Shown here: in pieces, positions 29,818-45,248 of the stretch | Numbering within the stretch: the first letter of the stretch is position 1 | Layout of the letters: each line of letters opens with the position of its first letter | DNA from: Candidatus Rifleibacterium amylolyticum | GTDB lineage: Bacteria; Muiribacteriota; Ozemobacteria; Ozemobacterales; Ozemobacteraceae | DNA: 50,958 bases | NCBI GenBank assembly: GCA_009917695.1 | Contig: JAACJG010000014.1 | Coordinates: 1-50,958 of the forward strand | Direction of reading: 5' to 3' | Translations under genes and position numbers: made by a program | The notes under the pieces: generated by a model | Told to the model about the DNA's origin: nothing | Seen by the model: only the letters and a program-made list of their open reading frames with translations | Database searches by the model: none

Positions 29818-31107
29818 TTACTGCCTCGCATTCTCGACTTCATCAACAGGAAGCATGATATAGACCTGATCGTTCTCTCTCACCACCTGCGACAATCTGA
29901 CTCCCACAAGACTGTTCTTTTCGGCACGGTCGACCGGCTTGAAAGCCTCTTCAATCGATTCGACCTTCTGCGTCAGAACGCCGGTGGCATTACCCTGAAA
30001 CATCAGCTCATCACCCTGAGCAAAACCTGCGCCTTCGACCCTGATTTCGGCCACCATAACCCGTTTAAAAAAATTGGTGACGACTCCGACATGCACTTTG
30101 CGATGTGTCGCCTTGGAGCCATTGCCGCCGCTCCACTCGCCAATCTGGCGACCAAAAAAGAAGCCTTCAGAAAAGCCGCGATGAAAAACAGCGTCGAGCC
30201 GCTTCATAAGCAATTCTTTAAGCTTGTCGGAGAGTTCGACAAAATCGTCATCTGCATGATGAGCGTAGTAAAAATCAATATAAGCACGGTAACAGGCGGT
30301 CACTTCGCTGACATATTCAGGGCTGCGGCCACGGCCCTCGATCTTGAGACTGTCAATGCCCGCTGCCAGAAGTTTATCCAGAAAAGGCAGAGTGCAAAGA
30401 TCGCGTGGGCTCATGACATAATCCTGGCCGATGAGAAACTCTTTTCCATCACGCAGATCGCGAATCTCATACTCACGTCGACAGGGTTGTCGGCATTCGC
30501 CGCGGTTAGCCGACTGATTGAAAGCCAACTGAGACATGAAACAGCGACCACTGACCGATACGCACATGGCACCATGCGCAAATACCTCGATTTCGATGTT
30601 TTCGGCGACTTCACCGAGCTGCGCCCTCAGGTTGCGTCTTATCGACAAGATCTCATCAAGAGTGCATTCGCGCGCCAGCACAAAACGCTTTACACCAAAA
30701 TGTCGATAAAAAAACGCAAGTGCCGAGGAATTGGCTACCGACATCTGAGTCGAAACAAATGCTGCGATCTTATAGCGCAAAGCCAGATCGAGAATGGCGA
30801 AATCCCAGCAGATGATCGCATCGACACCAGCGGCGGCGGCCTGCTCGACCAGAGTCTCAGCCAATTCGAGCTCACTGTCGTAAACTATGGTATTCATCGC
30901 CAGATAGGCTTTGGCGCCATACTCGTGACAGAGTCCGGCAATCTCTGGCATTTCGCAGGCCGCAAAATTTTTGGCACTGGCTCGCATATTCATCGAGACA
31001 ACGCCAAAATAGACAGCGTCGGCACCCGCTTCGAGAGCTGCGCGCAGGCTTATCATATCGCCGGCCGGCGCCATCAGTTCGGGTTTTCGTTTGTCTGAAA
31101 AAGTCAT
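29818..31107 (-). CDS. U32 family protein, TrhP-like (probable tRNA hydroxylation protein)
   Basis: 429 residues from ATG 31107, which follows AAGGG at 6 nt. The in-frame extension back to 31356 is rejected because it would translate the GAGCAC repeat and the 31159 inverted repeat. The family start ELMAPAGD (10-17) and the Cys pattern C182-x6-C189-x15-C205-x3-C209 are present (MCVSVSGRCF, GECRQPC). Single-module U32 proteins of about 430-450 residues include TrhP, which installs 5-hydroxyuridine at tRNA position 34 and uses an Fe-S cluster and prephenate; the longer RlhA acts on 23S rRNA. The older name is collagenase-like peptidase. Length and architecture favour TrhP, but I leave the symbol blank. 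It is the first gene of the four-gene operon ending at 27874. Confidence 0.9.
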   Translation of the reverse strand: MTFSDKRKPELMAPAGDMISLRAALEAGADAVYFGVVSMNMRASAKNFAACEMPEIAGLCHEYGAKAYLAMNTIVYDSELELAETLVEQAAAAGVDAIICWDFAILDLALRYKIAAFVSTQMSVANSSALAFFYRHFGVKRFVLARECTLDEILSIRRNLRAQLGEVAENIEIEVFAHGAMCVSVSGRCFMSQLAFNQSANRGECRQPCRREYEIRDLRDGKEFLIGQDYVMSPRDLCTLPFLDKLLAAGIDSLKIEGRGRSPEYVSEVTACYRAYIDFYYAHHADDDFVELSDKLKELLMKRLDAVFHRGFSEGFFFGRQIGEWSGGNGSKATHRKVHVGVVTNFFKRVMVAEIRVEGAGFAQGDELMFQGNATGVLTQKVESIEEAFKPVDRAEKNSLVGVRLSQVVRENDQVYIMLPVDEVENARQ

Positions 31108-31158
31108 TGGCATCCCTTCAACTAGCGGTCTGTCAAAGTTGAATGCATGTTTAAAATC

Positions 31159-31240
31159 GTCATTGCGAGGAGCGTAGCGACGAAGCAATCTTTCCGACAA
31201 TGGGATTGCCGCGTCGGGCTGACGCCCTCCTCGCAATGAC
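31159..31240. repeat. Dispersed inverted repeat (full copy), REP/MITE-like
   Basis: Terminal arms GTCATTGCGAGGAG (31159-31172) and CTCCTCGCAATGAC (31227-31240) are perfectly complementary over 14 bp. The pairing continues imperfectly inward (GCGACGAAGCAATC against GGATTGCCGCGTCGGG). The left arm resembles the half copy at 1032-1060. Total about 82 bp. It encodes no protein. Confidence 0.85.
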
Positions 31241-31312
31241 CATTTCTTACCATGCAATTCAGATTTGACATATAGCCAGATTAAGCAACAGTTTGCTGAC
31301 AGAAAAATTTTT

Positions 31313-31354
<42 letters not shown>

Positions 31355-31414
31355 AAATAATATTACACGCCTCAGACATAATTAACTACTGCCAGATGCA
31401 ATTTTTTCATAAAA

Positions 31415-33892: not shown

Positions 33893-33925
33893 CTTATGGT
33901 CAAGATCAGAGTAGAGGAAGCGGAT

Positions 33926-35131
33926 ATGGCACCTATCAAATCGCAAAATCTTTCGATAATGCTGACAGATATCCAGGGCTATTCGACAACTACTGCCAGC
34001 GCCAGCCGAGATGAAGTTGTCGGCCTGATCCGGCGTCACAACCAGCTGATGCGCCCGGTTATCGAGTTTTACAACGGAAGAATTGTAAAGTCAATCGGAG
34101 ATGCATTTTTGTGCACATTTGGCAGTGCTACTGACGCAGTTATCTGCGCCATCATCATTCAGCTGCTGCTCAAAGAATACAACCAACGGCTCAAAGACGA
34201 AAGCCACAAGCTGAATCTTCGCGTCGTCATCAATTCAGGTGATGTCAGCATCGAGGGCGATGACATTTTCGGAAATGCTGTCAATGTGACCGCCCGCATG
34301 GAAGGCCTCGAGTGTTTTCCCGGCGGGTCGATAGGCATCAGCGAATCAACATATCTACTAATGGATCGCAATGAGATTGTCGCAGAAATAGCCGGACTGG
34401 AAAAGCTTAAAGGCATACCTGATCCAGTAAATGTATTTCGCGTTCCGGTTGAAAAACAAAAGCTCAACCAGCTGCCAGTACAGCTTCTCAACCTGGTCGA
34501 AAAGGTTGCAAATGCCAAAGGCGACGGCCAGAATTCTGAAGTCTCCGAACAGATTAATGAATGGACACAATCTGTCAGCAACTTTCTCAAACAGACCAAC
34601 TGGGGCGACAATATCAACAAAGCCTCGCACCACATTGGCAAAGTGCAAAAATCTCTGGTAAAAACTTTTGGTCAGAAAACCGTTCTCGAAAAGAAGAAAG
34701 AACTCAACGACGCCTCGATTGCTGCCCGCTTCAAGAGCGGCATCATCGACATGATCATTCTGATCATTATTTCAGTAGGGTTGAAAATTGCATGGTGGCC
34801 GATTCAGAGTATATTGTTCGGAACCCCTGAATATGCCGACCCAGGCCTTCTCGAATCATTGATGTCGTTGAATTTCAGATATCCCATAGTCGTTTTCTGG
34901 CTTTATTTTGCCGTTTTCTGGAAAATCAAGCAGGCTTCACCCGGCCAGATTGCCGTTGGCACTGCAGTAGTTAACGAAAACGGCGTTCCCGATCTTTCGT
35001 TTGCCATGGTGGCAAAACGCAGTCTGCTGTTTCTGCTATCCAACTTTATTCTTATCGGAACCGCCATGGTTTTTGTTGGCGAAAAGAAAACTTTTTACGA
35101 CAAGACCTGCAACACTCGGGTAGTCGAATAG
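33926..35131 (+). CDS. Class III adenylate cyclase fused to an RDD membrane domain
   Basis: 401 residues from ATG 33926, with AGAGGAAG 5 nt upstream. The cyclase domain (about 8-180) keeps metal-binding D15 (LTDIQGYS) and D59, adenine-specifying K55 (VKSIGD) and D113 (DIFGNAVNVTAR), and the transition-state residues N120 and R124. It is thus expected to make cAMP from ATP as a homodimer (established family logic). A helical linker (about 190-262) follows. The C-terminal RDD domain (about 268-395) starts ARFKSGIIDMIILIIIS and has three or so membrane helices (IVVFWLYFAVFW; SLLFLLSNFILIGTAMVFVG). The order cyclase-then-membrane is unusual. The RDD part may anchor the enzyme or sense membrane or ion stress. 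It has its own promoter and no operon partner. Confidence 0.9.
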   Translation: MAPIKSQNLSIMLTDIQGYSTTTASASRDEVVGLIRRHNQLMRPVIEFYNGRIVKSIGDAFLCTFGSATDAVICAIIIQLLLKEYNQRLKDESHKLNLRVVINSGDVSIEGDDIFGNAVNVTARMEGLECFPGGSIGISESTYLLMDRNEIVAEIAGLEKLKGIPDPVNVFRVPVEKQKLNQLPVQLLNLVEKVANAKGDGQNSEVSEQINEWTQSVSNFLKQTNWGDNINKASHHIGKVQKSLVKTFGQKTVLEKKKELNDASIAARFKSGIIDMIILIIISVGLKIAWWPIQSILFGTPEYADPGLLESLMSLNFRYPIVVFWLYFAVFWKIKQASPGQIAVGTAVVNENGVPDLSFAMVAKRSLLFLLSNFILIGTAMVFVGEKKTFYDKTCNTRVVE

Positions 35132-36080: not shown

Positions 36081-38237
36081 ATGAGTGAACTGACGCTGCC
36101 GCTGCATAACCCGGTATTGATCTTTTCACTGCTGTTGTTCATTATTCTCGGTACACCGCTTCTTCTCAATCGGCTTAAGATTCCGCACCTGATCGGCATG
36201 ATCATTGCTGGCGCCATAATCGGGCCGCACGGCCTCAATCTGATGCATCGCGACAGTTCGATAATTCTTTTCGGCACGGTAGGACTGCTCTACATCATGT
36301 TCATGGCCGGACTCGAAATAGACATGGCCGAATTCAAAAAAAACAGCGGGCGCAGTCTGGTGTTCGGTCTGTACACCTTCTCTATTCCCATGTTGCTGGG
36401 CACGCTCGCCGGCATCTATCACCTCGGATTCGGGCTACCGGCATCGATACTGCTGGCAAGCATGTTTGCCTCGCACACTTTGATTGCCTACCCACTGATA
36501 AGCAGTCTCGGAGTAGCCAAAAATCGTGCGGTTACAGTGGCCATAGGCGGAACCATGATCACCGACACACTGGCACTTCTGGTTCTTGCCGCAGTGGTTG
36601 GTGTAAAAACCGGTCACATTACCGAAGGTTTCTGGCTCAAAATGGGTCTGTCTTTTTCCCTGATCGCCCTGGTAATCATGCTGCTCTTTCCGGTAATCGG
36701 GCGCTGGTTTTTCAAGCGCTTCAACAATCACATTTCACAGTACAACTTTGTGCTGGCCATGGTTTTTCTTGCGTCTTTTCTGGTCGAACTGGCCGGCGTC
36801 GAGCCGATTATCGGGGCGTTTCTCGCCGGCCTGGCGCTAAACCGCCTGATACCACACACTTCGGCACTGATGAACCGCATCGAATTTGTCGGTAACGCCC
36901 TATTTATACCGATTTTTCTGATTGGCGTCGGCATGCTCATCAATTACCAGGCTTTTTTTAAAGACTGGGAAACGATCAACGTGGCTCTGACCATGTGTAT
37001 AATTGCGACCGTAGCGAAGTATCTGGCCGCCTGGCTGACCCAGAAAACCTTTGGTTACAGTGCCGATGAACGTCGCCTGATCTTTGGTCTCAGCAACGCA
37101 CAGGCGGCAGCCACCCTGGCGGCAGTGCTTGTCGGCTACAATGTTGTACTGGGGCAGACGCCCGAAGGTGAGCCTGTCAGGTTGCTCAGCGAAAGTGTAC
37201 TCAACGGCACGATTCTGATGATTCTGGTGACCTGCACCATCGCATCTTTTTCAGCCCAGAAAGGTGCTGAGAATATAGCTCTCGATGAAAATCTCGAAGA
37301 AAAATCGAGCCGTGCCACTACCGAAGAACGCATACTTATTCCCATAGGTTATCTTGAAAGCGCTGAAGAGCTGGTAAACTTGAGTGTTACCGTTAAATCA
37401 AAAAGCAATACAGCTGGTCTTTATGCCCTGACAGTCATCGATCATACCAGCAGTGATGAAATCGCAGAACGCGATGCCAACAAAATTCTCGATCTCGCCA
37501 AAAAGACCGCGGCGGCAACTGATACCAAACTCAAAAGACTTTTACGCTACGACCTGAACATAGTTAACGCAATAACCGGCATAGTCAGGCAGCACAAGAT
37601 CACTGATCTGATTCTGGGCCTGCATCATCAGAAGGATTTATCAGAATCTTTTCTCGGTAACGTTACCGAAGGCATTCTCGCACGATGTAATACGACAACG
37701 ATGATTTATCGGCCGGTGCAGCCTCTTTCGACGATAAAACGCGATATCGTCATAGTACCTGAAAATGCCGAGCGCGAAATCGGATTTCCGTTCTGGATGA
37801 CCAAAGTCTGGAACATCGGCCGAAATACCGGTTCCCAGCTGGTTTTTTACGCGCCGGCACGCACCATAGAATATCTCAAGGAAATTCATCAGCGCTTTCC
37901 GATTGAAGCTGAATTTATCGAATTTTCCGAATGGGACGATTTTTTGATTCTGTCCCGCGATTTCAAACCAGATGACAGCCTGATGATAATTCTCAGCCGT
38001 AAAGGCCATCTCTCTTATAACGCCAATATGGCCAGAATTCCGCAATATCTCAACAAGTATTTCACCCGCAACAATTTCATACTGGTTTACCCGATGCAGC
38101 TCGGAATTTCATTCAATACTGAATTCGACCTTGGCAACCCGTCATTTCTCGAACCAATAATGGAAAATTTCGAGCGTCTCGATGAACTTGGCAAGACCAT
38201 AGTCAAACTGTTCCGCAAAATTGATCGTCGCAAATAA
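36081..38237 (+). CDS. CPA2 family cation/proton antiporter with Usp-like C-terminal domain
   Basis: 718 residues. The first 395 or so form the CPA2 (Na+/H+ or K+/H+ exchanger) membrane domain of about 12 helices. Marks: LKIPHLIGMIIAGAIIGPHG, FMAGLEIDM, the TM5 region TMITDTLALL with one conserved Asp, and VEPIIGAFLAGLALNR. The TD rather than ND arrangement suggests electroneutral exchange (inference). The last 320 residues resemble two universal-stress-protein (UspA-like) folds, as in the CHX/Kef-type transporters (ILIPIGYLESAEELV, ITDLILGLHH). The binding site is GAGGA about 11 nt from the ATG. The C-terminus may sense nucleotides and gate the exchanger. It is flanked by cyclase genes at 33.9 and 39.0 kb. 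Confidence 0.92.
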   Translation: MSELTLPLHNPVLIFSLLLFIILGTPLLLNRLKIPHLIGMIIAGAIIGPHGLNLMHRDSSIILFGTVGLLYIMFMAGLEIDMAEFKKNSGRSLVFGLYTFSIPMLLGTLAGIYHLGFGLPASILLASMFASHTLIAYPLISSLGVAKNRAVTVAIGGTMITDTLALLVLAAVVGVKTGHITEGFWLKMGLSFSLIALVIMLLFPVIGRWFFKRFNNHISQYNFVLAMVFLASFLVELAGVEPIIGAFLAGLALNRLIPHTSALMNRIEFVGNALFIPIFLIGVGMLINYQAFFKDWETINVALTMCIIATVAKYLAAWLTQKTFGYSADERRLIFGLSNAQAAATLAAVLVGYNVVLGQTPEGEPVRLLSESVLNGTILMILVTCTIASFSAQKGAENIALDENLEEKSSRATTEERILIPIGYLESAEELVNLSVTVKSKSNTAGLYALTVIDHTSSDEIAERDANKILDLAKKTAAATDTKLKRLLRYDLNIVNAITGIVRQHKITDLILGLHHQKDLSESFLGNVTEGILARCNTTTMIYRPVQPLSTIKRDIVIVPENAEREIGFPFWMTKVWNIGRNTGSQLVFYAPARTIEYLKEIHQRFPIEAEFIEFSEWDDFLILSRDFKPDDSLMIILSRKGHLSYNANMARIPQYLNKYFTRNNFILVYPMQLGISFNTEFDLGNPSFLEPIMENFERLDELGKTIVKLFRKIDRRK

Positions 38238-38317
38238 TCGAGCAGACAGGCAATACTTGACTTTGCCGGGCAAAAGCAGGAAGATTTAGTAATAATGAAC
38301 CGGCAGGAGATATAACC

Positions 38318-39043
38318 ATGAAAATTACAGGAAAATTCGCCATGACCAAATTGCTGGCAATCGCAGTACTGGTATTTGTTCTGGTCGCAGTAATCGCCTC
38401 TGCACAGAACCAGAAGCCACCTCTTGAAAAAATCAACGTATTCGCCGTGGTATCGCAGAATATCGAAAGTGCTTTTACCGATGCAGCAAAAGCGCTGAAA
38501 GAAGAAGAAGGCCTCGAAGCATTTCCGACACTCGGCTACCAGATTCATTGTACGCTGTATATGACGCAGTATCCTGAGGGCACTAAAGACAAAGTTCTTG
38601 CCCTGATCGAAGAACTGGCCAGCAATACCCGTGAATTCGCGGTTAACAGCACCGGCCTCGAAATCACTTCTGGCAACTGGTATTTTATGAATATCGAACG
38701 CAACCGCAATCTTCAGACTTTATCTGATTCTGTCGTTGAGATGCTGGCTCCAATGCGCGCCAAATCTGATTTCGTGCCAGACTGGGCCAAGGAGTTTCCG
38801 ACCAAAGTCGAGTATATATCAAAATACGGCAGCCCCAATGTCTACAGCGAATTTAACCCGCACCTGACCTTTCTCGCCAAAAGCGACGAAGAAAAACTGC
38901 AGAGATTCAATAAAAAGCATGCTGACAGCGATTTTGCCAAAATCATTGGCGGCAGCGTGGTTGCCATAGGCGCTGGAATCGCCGACCGCGACGGTCAGAT
39001 CAAAGAACCCTGGAAAGTGTTTCCGCTCAAGAAAGCTGAATAA
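38318..39043 (+). CDS. Secreted 2H phosphoesterase-like protein
   Basis: 241 residues; ATG after CAGGAG at 8 nt. A hydrophobic signal segment (KLLAIAVLVFVLVAVIASAQ, about 11-30) is followed by an alpha+beta domain with two H-x-T motifs: H77-C-T79 (GYQIHCTLYM) and H182-L-T184 (FNPHLTFLAK). Two such motifs about 105 residues apart are the active site of the 2H superfamily (LigT/ThpR, CPDase, AKAP18-like), which cut cyclic or 2'-5' phosphodiesters. Export is unusual, as the typical enzymes are cytoplasmic. A gene with a very short 3' spacer converges on it. If active, it would act on periplasmic nucleotides or glycans. The exact substrate is unknown. Confidence 0.82.
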   Translation: MKITGKFAMTKLLAIAVLVFVLVAVIASAQNQKPPLEKINVFAVVSQNIESAFTDAAKALKEEEGLEAFPTLGYQIHCTLYMTQYPEGTKDKVLALIEELASNTREFAVNSTGLEITSGNWYFMNIERNRNLQTLSDSVVEMLAPMRAKSDFVPDWAKEFPTKVEYISKYGSPNVYSEFNPHLTFLAKSDEEKLQRFNKKHADSDFAKIIGGSVVAIGAGIADRDGQIKEPWKVFPLKKAE

Positions 39044-39053
39044 TTCAGCTTTC
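39031..39053. terminator. Hairpin over both convergent stop codons
   Basis: GAAAGCTGAA / TTCAGCTTTC with a TAA loop, perfect 10 bp. It covers the last codons of the 2H gene (ending 39043) and of the cyclase-FHA gene (ending 39045), and both genes therefore end in the same GAAAGCTGA sequence. No U tract follows. Confidence 0.6.
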
Positions 39054-39995
39054 CTGGGAAGGCGCAGCCATCTGCGAACCTGATGTGCTGTAATATTTTG
39101 TGCTGAAAACTACGGCTGTCGGCGAATTTTTCGAAGGCTTTTCGCAGCAGAGATCGATGATGCCGTTATCGCCAAGCTGCATCTCGTCGCGCTGCAAAAG
39201 GACTGTAGTACCGCACTCGTTGGTTACATAGGTTCCGTTTGTGCTTTGATCGACAATAAAAAATTTGTCTTTGTGATATTCGATACGGGCATGAAAACGG
39301 GAAACCCGGTTGTCATTCACAACCAGATCGTTATGATCAAGACGGCCGATCGTGATGGTCGGGCGTGCTTCGCCGACTTCGTATTTATTTTCGCCGAAAA
39401 CCAGCTCCAAGCGCGGCCTGATCAGCGACTTGCCTTCACCAGAGCCTTTCAGGGCGACGGTGATTTTTTCTGTTTCCCAGACAACTTCGTAAACCGGCAA
39501 CTCTTCGCTTTTACCTTTAACCATTACATTATCGATACAGCGACAATATTCTGCATACAAGTCAGGCAGAGCCTTGATGACGTTCTCGGTGGTGATAATC
39601 TGACGCCGTTTTGCCAGCTTGACCATACGGGATGCCACATTAACCGAATCACCGAAAACATCTGAGTTTTCTACTATCACCGGCCCGTAATCTATGCCCA
39701 CATATATATCAGGAGCGTAATAACCGGAAAGTTCTGATTCAGGAATGGCATCGACGGCCGCCTGCATGGCCATAGCCGCATCGACTGCGCTTTTTGCCGA
39801 GGAAAACGAGCACATGATCTCGTCACCGATAGTTTTTATGACTGTTCCTTCGTGTTCAGAACAAACTTTTGCCATGACGGCAATACACAATGAGATAAGC
39901 GCATGCGCGGCAGTATTGCCGATTTTATCGTAGAGCTTGGTACTCTGTGCAATATCGGCGAACATTATGGCCAGTGAAGTCGATGATTCGGTCAT
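39045..39995 (-). CDS. Class III adenylate cyclase fused to an FHA domain
   Basis: 316 residues; ATG after GAGGAATT. The cyclase domain (about 5-175) keeps D14 (FADIAQST), K54 and D58 (IKTIGDE), D112 (DVFGDSVNVASR), N119 and R123, the full set for cAMP synthesis. The C-terminal FHA domain (about 195-285) has IGRLDHND, SRFHARIEY and the STNGTYV loop, so it should bind phospho-Thr peptides and may place the enzyme near Ser/Thr kinases. There is no membrane segment. It converges on the 2H phosphoesterase with a 1-bp gap. FHA-cyclase fusions occur in diverse bacteria, but the partner kinase is not in this window. Confidence 0.92.
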   Translation of the reverse strand: MTESSTSLAIMFADIAQSTKLYDKIGNTAAHALISLCIAVMAKVCSEHEGTVIKTIGDEIMCSFSSAKSAVDAAMAMQAAVDAIPESELSGYYAPDIYVGIDYGPVIVENSDVFGDSVNVASRMVKLAKRRQIITTENVIKALPDLYAEYCRCIDNVMVKGKSEELPVYEVVWETEKITVALKGSGEGKSLIRPRLELVFGENKYEVGEARPTITIGRLDHNDLVVNDNRVSRFHARIEYHKDKFFIVDQSTNGTYVTNECGTTVLLQRDEMQLGDNGIIDLCCEKPSKNSPTAVVFSTKYYSTSGSQMAAPSQES

Positions 39996-40153: not shown

Positions 40154-43100
40154 TCACGCTCTGGCATTTTTTTCAGGACACAGCAGATCATACAGAACCG
40201 GTATCATTACCATGGTCATCAAAGTCCCTGCCAGCAGGCCAAATGAAGCAACAACACCCAGAGGCGACATGCGCTCAAGACCAACCGCTCTTTCGAATGT
40301 AAGCGGCATGAGTCCGAGAATGGTCGAGAAAGTGGTGATAAGAATCGGGCGCAGGCGGGTTTTGACTGATTCGAACAATGCCTGATGTCTTGGCATGCCT
40401 TCAGCTATAGCTGTGTCAATAAAATCAATCAGAATAATAGCGTTGTTGACTATTGTTCCGCCGAGCAGAATAATACCCATCATTGCCGGCATACACATGG
40501 GTTTGTCGAATATTATCAGTCCCCAGAACGCACCGATCAGCGACAACGGAATTGCTGCCATCACCAGAAACGGCCGCCACCAGTTCTCAAACAGCAGATA
40601 CAAAACAGTATAAAGAAAGACAAAGGCAAAGAGCAAAGCCTTGGCGAGGCGCATTCCAGTATCAGCCATATCGGCCATGGTTCCGGTAAGCCTGGCGCTA
40701 TACCCAGCCGGAAGCTCTACTTCACCGAGAACTTTGTTTACATCCTCGGCAACCGCAGACAGCGGTCTTATTGAATTTATGCCCAGTATATCGATGGTTT
40801 CGTTAAGATTCTCACGGGTTACCAGAGTCGGTTGCAGAACATGCCTCTGTTCACCCAGAGAACCGATAAACAGATCACCGGACTGACCCGGCAAAGCCAG
40901 GTGGGTAATGTCTTCGTTCCAGCGCCGGCCACCGGACCCAATTTCGACTCTGATACCGAGATCGACAAAACCATGCATCTTGAGTGCCGAAGGTGAACGC
41001 CCGGTTAGAGTCAGACCAAGAAATTCGCCGATGACCTGTGGAGACAACTGATAACGGCCGGTAAGGCTGAGATCTGGCATAAAGTGAGTTTCCGGCTTGC
41101 TTTTGCTCCAGTTCAGGCGAAGATCGTTGAGCCCTTTGATGCGGCGAAGACGGTTTTCCATATCGTTGGCGATATAAAAAAGCACATCAGGATCTCTGCC
41201 GGAAATCATTACGTCTATTGGCGCTCTGGTTGTAGCCATGGGAGTTGCCCCGAACTCAGAAACAGAATAATTCACCAGTTCTGGAATCTTTGCAAACTCT
41301 TCCCGCCAGTCGCCCATGATCTGCCAGATGGTCTGCTCACGTTTATCGCGAGTTGTCAGCCGCACCTGAATATCGAGCTGCTGTAGAAGCTGACCACCGG
41401 CGCCGAAGCTTACCTGACCGGGCTCCGAGCCAGCAACAGTCGATATGCTCAACACGTGTGGACTGCGCTTAATTATCTGCTGCATCTGGTTTATCACAGC
41501 TTCGACACCTGAGATATCGGTAGAAGGTGGCAAATCTGTCTTTACCGTGATCATGCCGGTATCCATTCGCGGCATGAGTTCGCGACCGATCAGCGGTAAT
41601 ACAATTCTTGCCGTGATCAGCAGAAGAATAAGAGAGACGATGACCAGCGGCCACTTCAATTTCAATCCAAGCCGCAGCAGCTTGAGATATATGCTGGTAA
41701 CGAATTCGAGAAAGAGATCAATGACTTGATAAAACCGCTCTAGCCAACCACTCTTGTCTTCGTTTGAAAACTTTGCAATATCACCCGGCTCTTCGGCCAC
41801 AGCCATTTTGCGCAGTAGCAGAGGCACTACGGTAACCGCAGCGATAAAAGAACCGAGAAGAGTAGCGGTTATTGTCATGCTCAGTGGCCGCAGAACCTGT
41901 TGTACGTAACCGCCGACAAACATTATGGGAATCATGACCACTACCGTAGTGAGCATGCCGCCCCAGATCGAGAAGATCACTTCTTCGACACCTTTGACCA
42001 ACGCGGCGAAGCTGTGCTTTTCAGCATTGAGATGTCGCCACGAATTTTCGACAACGACGATAGCGGCATCGACAACCATACCTACTGCGATAATGAGACC
42101 AGACAGCGTAACCATGTTAACGGTAAAGGGCGTAAAGTATAGAAATGCAAAAGCAGTTAAAAACGCGAGAGGAATTGAAGCACCGACAATTAGAGCGGCG
42201 CGCAGGTTCTGCAGAAAAACCAGTACGATCAGCATGGTCAACCAGACTGCCGAAAACAGGGCATCTTTCATACCGGCGACGTTGACCGAGATAATTGGTT
42301 CCTGGTCTGTAGTTACAGCGAATTCGATTTCGGCATAACGCTTTTGTAGTTCGGGAAGATATGATTTAACACTGTTTAGTGCGCCAACCGCATAGCCATC
42401 TTCGGGTTTGAGAATGTTCAAAGCGATGGCAGGCCGGCCATCTCCATGATATATACTGCGTGGCGTGCTGACTCCAAGAGTTACCGAAGCCACATCGCCA
42501 AGTCTGATTATGCCGCCCTGCTGCACTCGCATCGGCATGTCGGCAAGTTCCTGCGGTGTGCGTGCTTCATTCAACGTTTTCACCAGTGACTCGCGCCCGC
42601 CAATTTCGAGATAGCCGCCGGGCAATGAAAGGTTCTGTGCACCGATCGCCTGTAGAACCTGAGCCGGACTAAGCCTGAACTGCCGCAATTTTTCGATATC
42701 CATGCGCACCAGCACCTCTGGCTGGTTGGCGCCAAACACGTCTACTTTACCGACTCCAGGCAGACGCAGCAGATCTTCTTTTATGTCATTTTCCGCCAGC
42801 AGTCTTATCGCACGCAGATCGAGAGATGAGCTGGCAGCCGGTGATAAAGCCAGAGTCATGACCGGGCGGTTGGCATCGGTAATTCTGAAAAACTGTGAAG
42901 TCTGCGTACCGGCAGGAAATCGCCGGGCAACCCGGTTAACTGCATTGATCACATCGGTCATGGCGGCCGCCATATCAACGCCATATTCAAAGTGTGCGTT
43001 GACTGAAGAGACCTCATCGCGTGAAGTCGAAACCACATTCTTTATGCCGGTTAAACCTCTGAGTTCGCGGTCGATAAGGGTAGTTACACGCCGGTTGACG

Positions 43101-43273
43101 TCGCCGGCCGAAGCTCCAGGAACCACCGTCATCGCGACAATTTGCGGTGGAACCGTGTCAGGAAAAAGATCGACAGGCATCATATACCAGGATATTATGC
43201 CGAGCGCGCCAACCAGCAACCAGAAGGCAATCGACCACGCAGGTTTGCGGATGACCTGTTCAACAATTTTCAT
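40154..43273 (-). CDS. RND efflux transporter permease
   Basis: 1039 residues, the usual AcrB-like length with two large periplasmic loops and about 12 helices. It overlaps the adaptor gene by ATGA. Marks: DLFPDTVPPQI near the N-terminus, LPGVGKVDVFG in the porter domain, TM4 GMVVDAAIVVVEN and TM10 LLGGTIVNNAIILIDF. TM4 carries one Asp (VDAAI rather than the VDDAI of AcrB), and the AcrB Lys940 position is Asn. Such single-Asp pumps are a known branch, and the substrate range cannot be read. It is energised by the proton motive force and exports through an outer-membrane channel supplied from elsewhere; no TolC gene is in the window. It is the third gene of the tetR operon. Confidence 0.95.
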   Translation of the reverse strand: MKIVEQVIRKPAWSIAFWLLVGALGIISWYMMPVDLFPDTVPPQIVAMTVVPGASAGDVNRRVTTLIDRELRGLTGIKNVVSTSRDEVSSVNAHFEYGVDMAAAMTDVINAVNRVARRFPAGTQTSQFFRITDANRPVMTLALSPAASSSLDLRAIRLLAENDIKEDLLRLPGVGKVDVFGANQPEVLVRMDIEKLRQFRLSPAQVLQAIGAQNLSLPGGYLEIGGRESLVKTLNEARTPQELADMPMRVQQGGIIRLGDVASVTLGVSTPRSIYHGDGRPAIALNILKPEDGYAVGALNSVKSYLPELQKRYAEIEFAVTTDQEPIISVNVAGMKDALFSAVWLTMLIVLVFLQNLRAALIVGASIPLAFLTAFAFLYFTPFTVNMVTLSGLIIAVGMVVDAAIVVVENSWRHLNAEKHSFAALVKGVEEVIFSIWGGMLTTVVVMIPIMFVGGYVQQVLRPLSMTITATLLGSFIAAVTVVPLLLRKMAVAEEPGDIAKFSNEDKSGWLERFYQVIDLFLEFVTSIYLKLLRLGLKLKWPLVIVSLILLLITARIVLPLIGRELMPRMDTGMITVKTDLPPSTDISGVEAVINQMQQIIKRSPHVLSISTVAGSEPGQVSFGAGGQLLQQLDIQVRLTTRDKREQTIWQIMGDWREEFAKIPELVNYSVSEFGATPMATTRAPIDVMISGRDPDVLFYIANDMENRLRRIKGLNDLRLNWSKSKPETHFMPDLSLTGRYQLSPQVIGEFLGLTLTGRSPSALKMHGFVDLGIRVEIGSGGRRWNEDITHLALPGQSGDLFIGSLGEQRHVLQPTLVTRENLNETIDILGINSIRPLSAVAEDVNKVLGEVELPAGYSARLTGTMADMADTGMRLAKALLFAFVFLYTVLYLLFENWWRPFLVMAAIPLSLIGAFWGLIIFDKPMCMPAMMGIILLGGTIVNNAIILIDFIDTAIAEGMPRHQALFESVKTRLRPILITTFSTILGLMPLTFERAVGLERMSPLGVVASFGLLAGTLMTMVMIPVLYDLLCPEKNARA

Positions 43274-44514
43274 CTGATCACCTCTATGCTGAAAGAAGCC
43301 GGCAATCTGACGTTTTCGAGATAACTACCGAGTGCCAGCACGGTTCCAGCCGGCATGAACTCTGGCGACACTGCAATAAGACCATTATCACCGCGCAGCA
43401 GAGGACTCACCTGCATGCGTCTGGCGTAATCACCTTCAACCACATATACCTGAATCATCTCGGAAGCAGTGAAATCGATAAAACCGGCGGCAGCAGGCAC
43501 GACAATTCCTTCAACACTCTTCACGGTTATCCGCACCGGAATCTGCATATCGTAAACCAGGCCGCTCTCTTCACCAGGTTTTGAGGCTTCGACCACGACC
43601 TGACGCAACTCATTCTGTACCGGATAAATTCGACTGACAACAAAACCATTGCTGCCATCATCATTAAGCGTCACTGCCTGACCGACACGAACGCTGACCG
43701 CTTCCTGCTGCGGCACCTGCATCAGCAGGCGGGTCATCGAAACGTCTTCGAGTGTATAAACAGCGACCCCCGGCTGCACAAGATTTCCTTCTTCCTGCAT
43801 GCGCACAGAAATAACGCCATCTATCGGAGCAAGAATTTCAGCATAATCGAGCCGCGCCTGCCATACTGCAACATCTTTTTCGCTCGCCTGTTTTTGTGAG
43901 ACCACCGCCGAAATCTGCGCTTTCTGCGCTGCTATCTGTGATTGCAAGGTAGCGAGACGGCTTTCTGCTTCAGCATGTCTATTTATTGTAGCGTCGAGTG
44001 CACTTTTAGCAATTGCTCTCGCCGCATATAGTTTTTCATCTCTCGCCAAAGTTGTTTTCCAGTAATCCAAGTTTACCTGATGGGCATCGAGCTGACTGGT
44101 CAGAGCCTGCAAACTGGCCTGCATGGCTGAGACCTGACCAGTAGCCGAATCAGAACGGGCGCGCGCCGCCTGCAACTGCGCCTTCTGCTCGCGGCTGTCG
44201 ATAACAGCGAGAACGCTGCCGGCCTTTACCCGGTCGCCTTCACGATATTTCAGTTCACTGATCTTGCCGACAGTTTCAGCTTTGAGCACAATGCTTGCTG
44301 CGCTCTTAACCGTTGCCAGAGCCGGCACACTGCGACTTACCAGACCAGGCGCGAGAGTCACAGTCTTGACTGCCAGCGGTGGTTGCGGCATAGGCTTTGC
44401 CTGCGCTAACGATGCTTTTTTGCGCAGCAGACCAAATATTGCAGCCGCGACAAAAGCCGCTATAACTATTATTATCACCAGGTTCTGCCAGTTCAGATAT
44501 TTATGTCTGCTCAT
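43270..44514 (-). CDS. RND efflux periplasmic adaptor (membrane fusion protein)
   Basis: 414 residues from ATG 44514 after AGAGGTAAACAG; it overlaps tetR by ATGA. N-terminal anchor helix (about 11-31, NLVIIIVIAAFVAAAIFGLL), then a barrel-sandwich/lipoyl region (VLKAETVGKISELKYREGDR), an alpha-hairpin coiled coil rich in Ala/Gln (about 140-225), the second lipoyl half (ILAPIDGVISVRMQEEGNLV), and the beta-barrel and membrane-proximal domains. The anchor is a helix rather than a lipid, as no lipobox Cys is present. It bridges the permease and an outer-membrane factor. Confidence 0.95.
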   Translation of the reverse strand: MSRHKYLNWQNLVIIIVIAAFVAAAIFGLLRKKASLAQAKPMPQPPLAVKTVTLAPGLVSRSVPALATVKSAASIVLKAETVGKISELKYREGDRVKAGSVLAVIDSREQKAQLQAARARSDSATGQVSAMQASLQALTSQLDAHQVNLDYWKTTLARDEKLYAARAIAKSALDATINRHAEAESRLATLQSQIAAQKAQISAVVSQKQASEKDVAVWQARLDYAEILAPIDGVISVRMQEEGNLVQPGVAVYTLEDVSMTRLLMQVPQQEAVSVRVGQAVTLNDDGSNGFVVSRIYPVQNELRQVVVEASKPGEESGLVYDMQIPVRITVKSVEGIVVPAAAGFIDFTASEMIQVYVVEGDYARRMQVSPLLRGDNGLIAVSPEFMPAGTVLALGSYLENVRLPASFSIEVIR

Positions 44515-45248
44515 CTGTTTACCTCTTGTGTCGTTACTGTTGCTGCGAGTGCAGCCATATTGCGGGCGCCATCTTCCAGAAGATTTTCGCTGCTGCGCTG
44601 CAAAGTCCATCTGATCACCGAGTTTTGCAGCAGGCCCAGGATGGCTGCCACCAGTGATTCAACTGAAACTGTTTGTCTGATCTGCCGGCTTTTCAGTCCA
44701 GCAACGACCAGCGACTTGACCGCATCTCTGAGATAACCAAGATTCAAGCGCATAGTAGCCAACAGCCTCTGATTTTGCGGATTAACCGCCTCTGACAGAA
44801 AGAGAATGGGATTGAGGCGTTCATTCAGCAGATGATGAAGATGCAGCTGGCTTAGTTCTTCAAGCTTTCTGGCAAAGGGTAGATCATCTTCTACCAGTTG
44901 ACAGAGAGCATCACGCCATGGCGTAAAAAGAGCATCGAGCAAGGCCAGCAGCATTTCTTCCTTGCTGGGAAAGTGCCGGTAAATTGCCGCTTCGCTGATT
45001 CCAACCCGGCCGGCGACTTCCCTGACCGTGAAATTACTGAATCCTTCGTTAAAGATCAGATCGCGGGCAGTTTCAAGGATTTCATTACGGCGGTCTTCAC
45101 CGCTTTTTCGGCGCACTATTTTTCTTTCTACCTGCAGCAAAGCAGATTTTGCCTCTTTTACCGCCGTCAGAGCGCGGCCGGCAGTTTTGCGTGGTGTTGC
45201 CGCAGCAGAGTTTTTGCTGCTTCCATTATCTTTTCTTCGTAATGTCAT
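44511..45248 (-). CDS. TetR-family repressor of the efflux operon
   Basis: 245 residues; ATG after GGAG at 8 nt. A basic extension of about 45 residues precedes the helix-turn-helix (REVAGRVGISEAAIYRHFPS), which is longer than in most TetR proteins. The C-terminal half is a ligand-binding helical bundle. The repressor is the first gene of the operon with its targets, so it is probably autoregulated. A perfect palindrome at 45332-45345 just downstream of the -10 box is the likely operator. The inducer is unknown. Confidence 0.93.
   Translation of the reverse strand: MTLRRKDNGSSKNSAAATPRKTAGRALTAVKEAKSALLQVERKIVRRKSGEDRRNEILETARDLIFNEGFSNFTVREVAGRVGISEAAIYRHFPSKEEMLLALLDALFTPWRDALCQLVEDDLPFARKLEELSQLHLHHLLNERLNPILFLSEAVNPQNQRLLATMRLNLGYLRDAVKSLVVAGLKSRQIRQTVSVESLVAAILGLLQNSVIRWTLQRSSENLLEDGARNMAALAATVTTQEVNR

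Follow-up and report, generated by a model that had tools for sequence, protein, structure and literature searches.

The two-histidine (2H) enzymes characterized to date are, to our knowledge, mostly intracellular, and a limited literature search found no account of a bacterial one that is exported. For some 2H proteins, ligand binding is known but turnover is not. Arabidopsis CPDase acts on ADP-ribose 1'',2''-cyclic phosphate, which arises within the cell as a by-product of tRNA splicing. The periplasmic 2',3'-cyclic phosphodiesterase CpdB has a metallophosphoesterase fold unrelated to 2H, and is a functional analogue rather than a member of the superfamily. In E. coli LigT, Arg130, located five residues past the second His, binds phosphate (PMC5283653). 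For C-P lyase clusters that have no phnP, a 2H protein has been proposed as the hydrolase of 5-phosphoribosyl 1,2-cyclic phosphate (PMC3840354).

The gene described here lies on contig JAACJG010000014.1 of Candidatus Rifleibacterium amylolyticum, of which the whole stretch analysed (50,958 nucleotides) is referred to as the window. It is a forward-strand ORF of 241 residues (38318..39043); a GGAG-type ribosome-binding site precedes its ATG start codon. Two further genes of the 2H superfamily were found in the genome.

Superfamily assignment

The initial annotation described the product as a 2H enzyme with two HxT motifs. Both are present, with the same numbering: H77-C78-T79 (38546..38554, forward strand), inside the block HCTLYMT, and H182-L183-T184 (38861..38869, forward strand), giving the two conserved HxS/T motifs about 100 residues apart by which the superfamily is recognized. 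The 17 orthologues share 39 invariant positions, which include H77, T79, H182 and T184 as well as R147, W156, K163 and G171-V175. Residues G171-V175 belong to a clade motif just ahead of the second HxT, Y170-G-S-P-N-V175 (38825..38842, forward strand). Shuffled sequences of the same composition contain two HxS/T motifs in 3.5% of cases and an HxT pair 80–130 residues apart in 0.2%, so the motifs by themselves are suggestive and call for further evidence.

Such evidence is provided by profiles and predicted structure. The protein matches the Pfam families DUF1045 (PF06299; E-value 7.8e-7, 29.6 bits against a gathering cut-off of 24.3) and 2_5_RNA_ligase2 (E-value 4.2e-6, above the curated cut-off), and both families are also matched by all ten orthologues tested, with E-values up to 1. 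An AlphaFold model based on seven sequences (pLDDT 85, pTM 0.77) was used instead of a single-sequence prediction, which was useless (pLDDT 40). This model has the two-lobed 2H fold, its best PDB matches being 2H proteins with E-values down to 2.5e-7, including Arabidopsis CPDase, TT0787, LigT, YjcG, Usb1 and AKAP18. The top match is the Arabidopsis CPDase (1jh6/1fsi), with a TM-score of 0.58 normalized by query and 0.74 by target, and 11% sequence identity. A PDB sequence search with the single protein gave no match, and a PDB profile search gave weak matches alone, to archaeal 2H proteins; since these sequence-only searches yielded almost nothing, the assignment rests on fold and profile. 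Within the genus the gene is under purifying selection, with dN/dS values of 0.08–0.12 (dN 0.11–0.14 and dS 1.1–1.4 against three congeners). Together with the invariant HxT residues, these data bear out the original identification, and membership of the predicted product in the 2H phosphoesterase superfamily is well supported.

N-terminal segment and cellular location

Residues 1–29 (38318..38404, forward strand) resemble a signal peptide, with a basic start (MKITGKFAMTK), a very hydrophobic core of about 16–18 residues, and A-S-A before Q30. Judged by eye and by hydropathy, the features of Sec export (basic n-region, hydrophobic h-region and AxA site) are found in the window protein and in most orthologues. 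The hydrophobic N terminus is present in 17 of 17 orthologues, ahead of a conserved core that begins with KINVF in most of them, and the best 15-residue mean hydropathy ranges from 2.0 to 3.6, compared to 0.8–1.4 in cytoplasmic paralogues. In most of the 17, there is also an AxA-like site with Q or E next to it. Cytoplasmic relatives of the same family (L018–L022) have no N-terminal hydrophobic segment. The signal segment noted in the initial annotation is thus a conserved feature, and the protein is probably exported. The window also encodes RND pump components (40154–44610, from inspection of translations), which fit a diderm cell, and hence the periplasm is the likely location of the 2H protein.

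The segment could instead be an uncleaved anchor that holds the enzyme at the outer face of the inner membrane, which would be compatible with either of the substrate readings considered below. We regard this as unlikely: the hydrophobic core is indeed long, with a mean hydropathy of 3.3–3.6 in the genus, and two orthologues (L015 and L016) have no clear AxA|Q/E site, but most orthologues retain an AxA-like site and the Q or E after it even though their N termini otherwise diverge. Cleaved or anchored, the catalytic domain would lie outside in both cases. The route that we favour is export by Sec into the periplasm, probably with processing by signal peptidase I.

Distribution and gene neighbourhood

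Of the 24 genomes of the source organism's family, which belongs to the uncultured Riflebacteria, 17 carry the exported orthologue, each time with both HxT motifs; several of the genomes in which it is missing are incomplete. It is absent from the 16 other genomes of the phylum (Riflebacteria) that were searched, and from about 340 other genomes, except for one weak partial match. Relatives with 78–82% identity come from Candidatus Riflebacteria genomes. Two plasmids of Novosphingobium resinovorum encode a 36% identical protein, the sole clear relative found outside the phylum, where the range is based on plasmids and a domain-wide sample. Neither phage records nor viral contigs contain a relative. 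A further 2H lineage of the family, which is cytoplasmic, consists of L018–L022 (genomes G007, G012, G020, G008 and G015); it has GFPWV before the second HxT, as the counterpart of YGSPNV, and is closer to TIGR03223.

Upstream of the 2H gene lies an ORF with a Na/H-exchanger-type membrane domain fused to a universal-stress-protein domain (36081–38237, forward strand). Only some members of the genus keep this antiporter-2H gene order, and in other genera the genes around the 2H gene are unrelated; on synteny grounds, an operon that includes the antiporter gene or the nearby cyclase genes was rejected. Between the two genes is a stretch kept in four genomes of the genus (38256..38289, forward strand; CTTGAC ... 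GAAgATT), which is a possible promoter of the 2H gene itself, while a sigma-70 consensus scan found no promoter upstream of the gene and missed this stretch. The gene may be transcribed alone. With a promoter-like stretch ahead of it and neighbours that change from genus to genus, the gene appears to encode a stand-alone enzyme and not part of a system.

Two other neighbours encode class III cyclase domains, one fused to an RDD membrane domain (33896–35131, forward strand) and one fused to an FHA domain (39045–39995, reverse strand), the latter convergent with the 2H gene and one base away. These cyclases match PADLOC models of Pycsar cyclases, as is expected of class III cyclases, in the case of 39045–39995 probably just through the shared cyclase domain. 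Further upstream, seven perfect copies of the hexamer GAGCAC (31313–31354) occur at the start of a long U32-peptidase-like ORF (29818–31356, reverse strand), whose true start is probably further in, as the ORFs of relatives are shorter.

The flanking cyclase genes, and the fact that Acb1 has the same fold, could suggest that the 2H protein degrades cyclic nucleotide signals, or serves in defence or counter-defence together with these cyclases. This is highly improbable, however, as the neighbours are conserved neither outside the genus nor throughout it, PADLOC gave no defence-family match for the 2H protein, phages and viral contigs have no relative of it, and the cyclase domains are expected to be cytoplasmic while the enzyme is probably exported. 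Degradation of nucleotide signals had been put forward in the initial annotation; nothing in the synteny, viral contigs or PADLOC results connects the protein with signalling or defence.

Proposed role and comparison with named systems

The reading that we prefer, with about even confidence, infers export, catalysis, substrate and role alike: the protein would be a Sec-exported periplasmic 2H phosphoesterase that opens ribose cyclic phosphates for salvage. The two HxT motifs would form an active site of the usual 2H type, in which the two His residues act as general base and general acid while the two Thr residues hold the phosphate, and the ring would most likely be opened to a monoester. Candidate substrates are RNA fragments or nucleotides with 2',3'-cyclic ends, and also related cyclic phosphates of sugars, after which enzymes of the 5'-nucleotidase family could release nucleoside and phosphate for uptake.

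The six matches to 5_nucleotid_C (5'-nucleotidase family) in the genome count in favour of this salvage role, as do the N-terminal hydrophobic segment and the neighbouring genes of the Novosphingobium relative. Against it count the failure to find any periplasmic RNase T2 in the source organism's family that could supply 2',3'-cyclic ends, the lack of salvage genes beside the 2H gene in Riflebacteria, and the possibility that the ubiquitous 5_nucleotid_C genes include CpdB-type enzymes doing the same job. Pairing with RNase T2 is accordingly unlikely, and the idea of a stand-in for a missing CpdB is weakened by the many 5_nucleotid_C genes. The substrates first listed for this protein (2',3'-cNMP, 2'-5' linkages and nucleotide signals) were a fair guess for the superfamily, and none of them is singled out by the present data. 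Comparison narrows the choice to some degree: the 2'-5' ligase type of ThpR/LigT can be dropped, and the nearest fold is that of a ribose cyclic-phosphate CPDase.

ThpR/LigT (TIGR02258) has the 2H fold and both HxT motifs in common with the window protein, but the latter scores 12.4 bits, below the equivalog cut-off of 65.7. Moreover, the equivalent of LigT Arg130 is missing: A187 occupies the position of the phosphate-binding Arg of LigT and ThpR, and the exported clade has Ala here (Pro in one member), whereas the genome's own ThpR keeps the Arg. R147 or K163, both invariant, are candidates to stand in for Arg130. That gene, a clear ThpR beside a cinA-like gene, is one of the two other 2H genes of the genome. 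On these three grounds (score, missing Arg and separate ThpR) the window protein was rejected as ThpR.

By sequence, the window protein is closer to the DUF1045 branch, which is linked to phosphonate operons, than to ThpR/LigT. Its score with the phosphonate-operon protein model TIGR03223 is 22.7 bits, far below the cut-off of 248.95; cytoplasmic relatives score higher, still far below the cut-off, and have in common with it the aligned core and, a short way ahead of the second HxT, the motif Y-G-x-P-x-V. It differs from the DUF1045/TIGR03223 proteins by its export signal and by the lack of a phosphonate operon, no phn genes being seen near the 2H gene. The proposal for the 2H protein of C-P lyase clusters (PMC3840354) speaks for ribose cyclic phosphates as the generally preferred substrates, without proving this.

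The same proposal, the two best profile matches (DUF1045 and TIGR03223), the missing Arg130 and the missing RNase T2 would also fit an exported 2H enzyme with a non-RNA substrate, either the cyclic phosphate of a sugar or polyol, or else a phosphodiester of an envelope polymer or lipid head group. We consider this a lesser possibility, since the TIGR03223 score is so low, 5-phosphoribosyl 1,2-cyclic phosphate arises in the cytoplasm while the window protein is probably exported, and phosphonate genes were not seen nearby. Also less likely than not is the suggestion that the proteins with the export signal, HCTLYMT and YGSPNV, and without Arg130, form an undescribed extracytoplasmic 2H clade whose substrate is a specific cyclic phosphate from the envelope or the environment, and not cytoplasmic RNA ends. 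If true, a conserved exported clade would bring 2H chemistry to the periplasm, where it would be an alternative to metalloenzymes of the CpdB type, and transfer of the name '2'-5' RNA ligase family protein' to such genes would call for caution. The gene is otherwise an ordinary, single-gene find in a well-known superfamily.

Returning to salvage as the preferred role, CpdB corresponds to the window protein in proposed place and reaction, and Arabidopsis CPDase is its best fold match despite the low identity. The closest parallel outside the phylum is WP_248006450.1 of N. resinovorum, named '2'-5' RNA ligase family protein', whose 36% identity extends over the core and which has both HxT motifs and YGSPNV. 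Like the window protein, it starts with a hydrophobic segment that is a likely export signal; it belongs to a different phylum, and on the one plasmid examined its gene is adjoined by genes for a PAP2 phosphatase, a NUDIX hydrolase and an S1/P1 nuclease.
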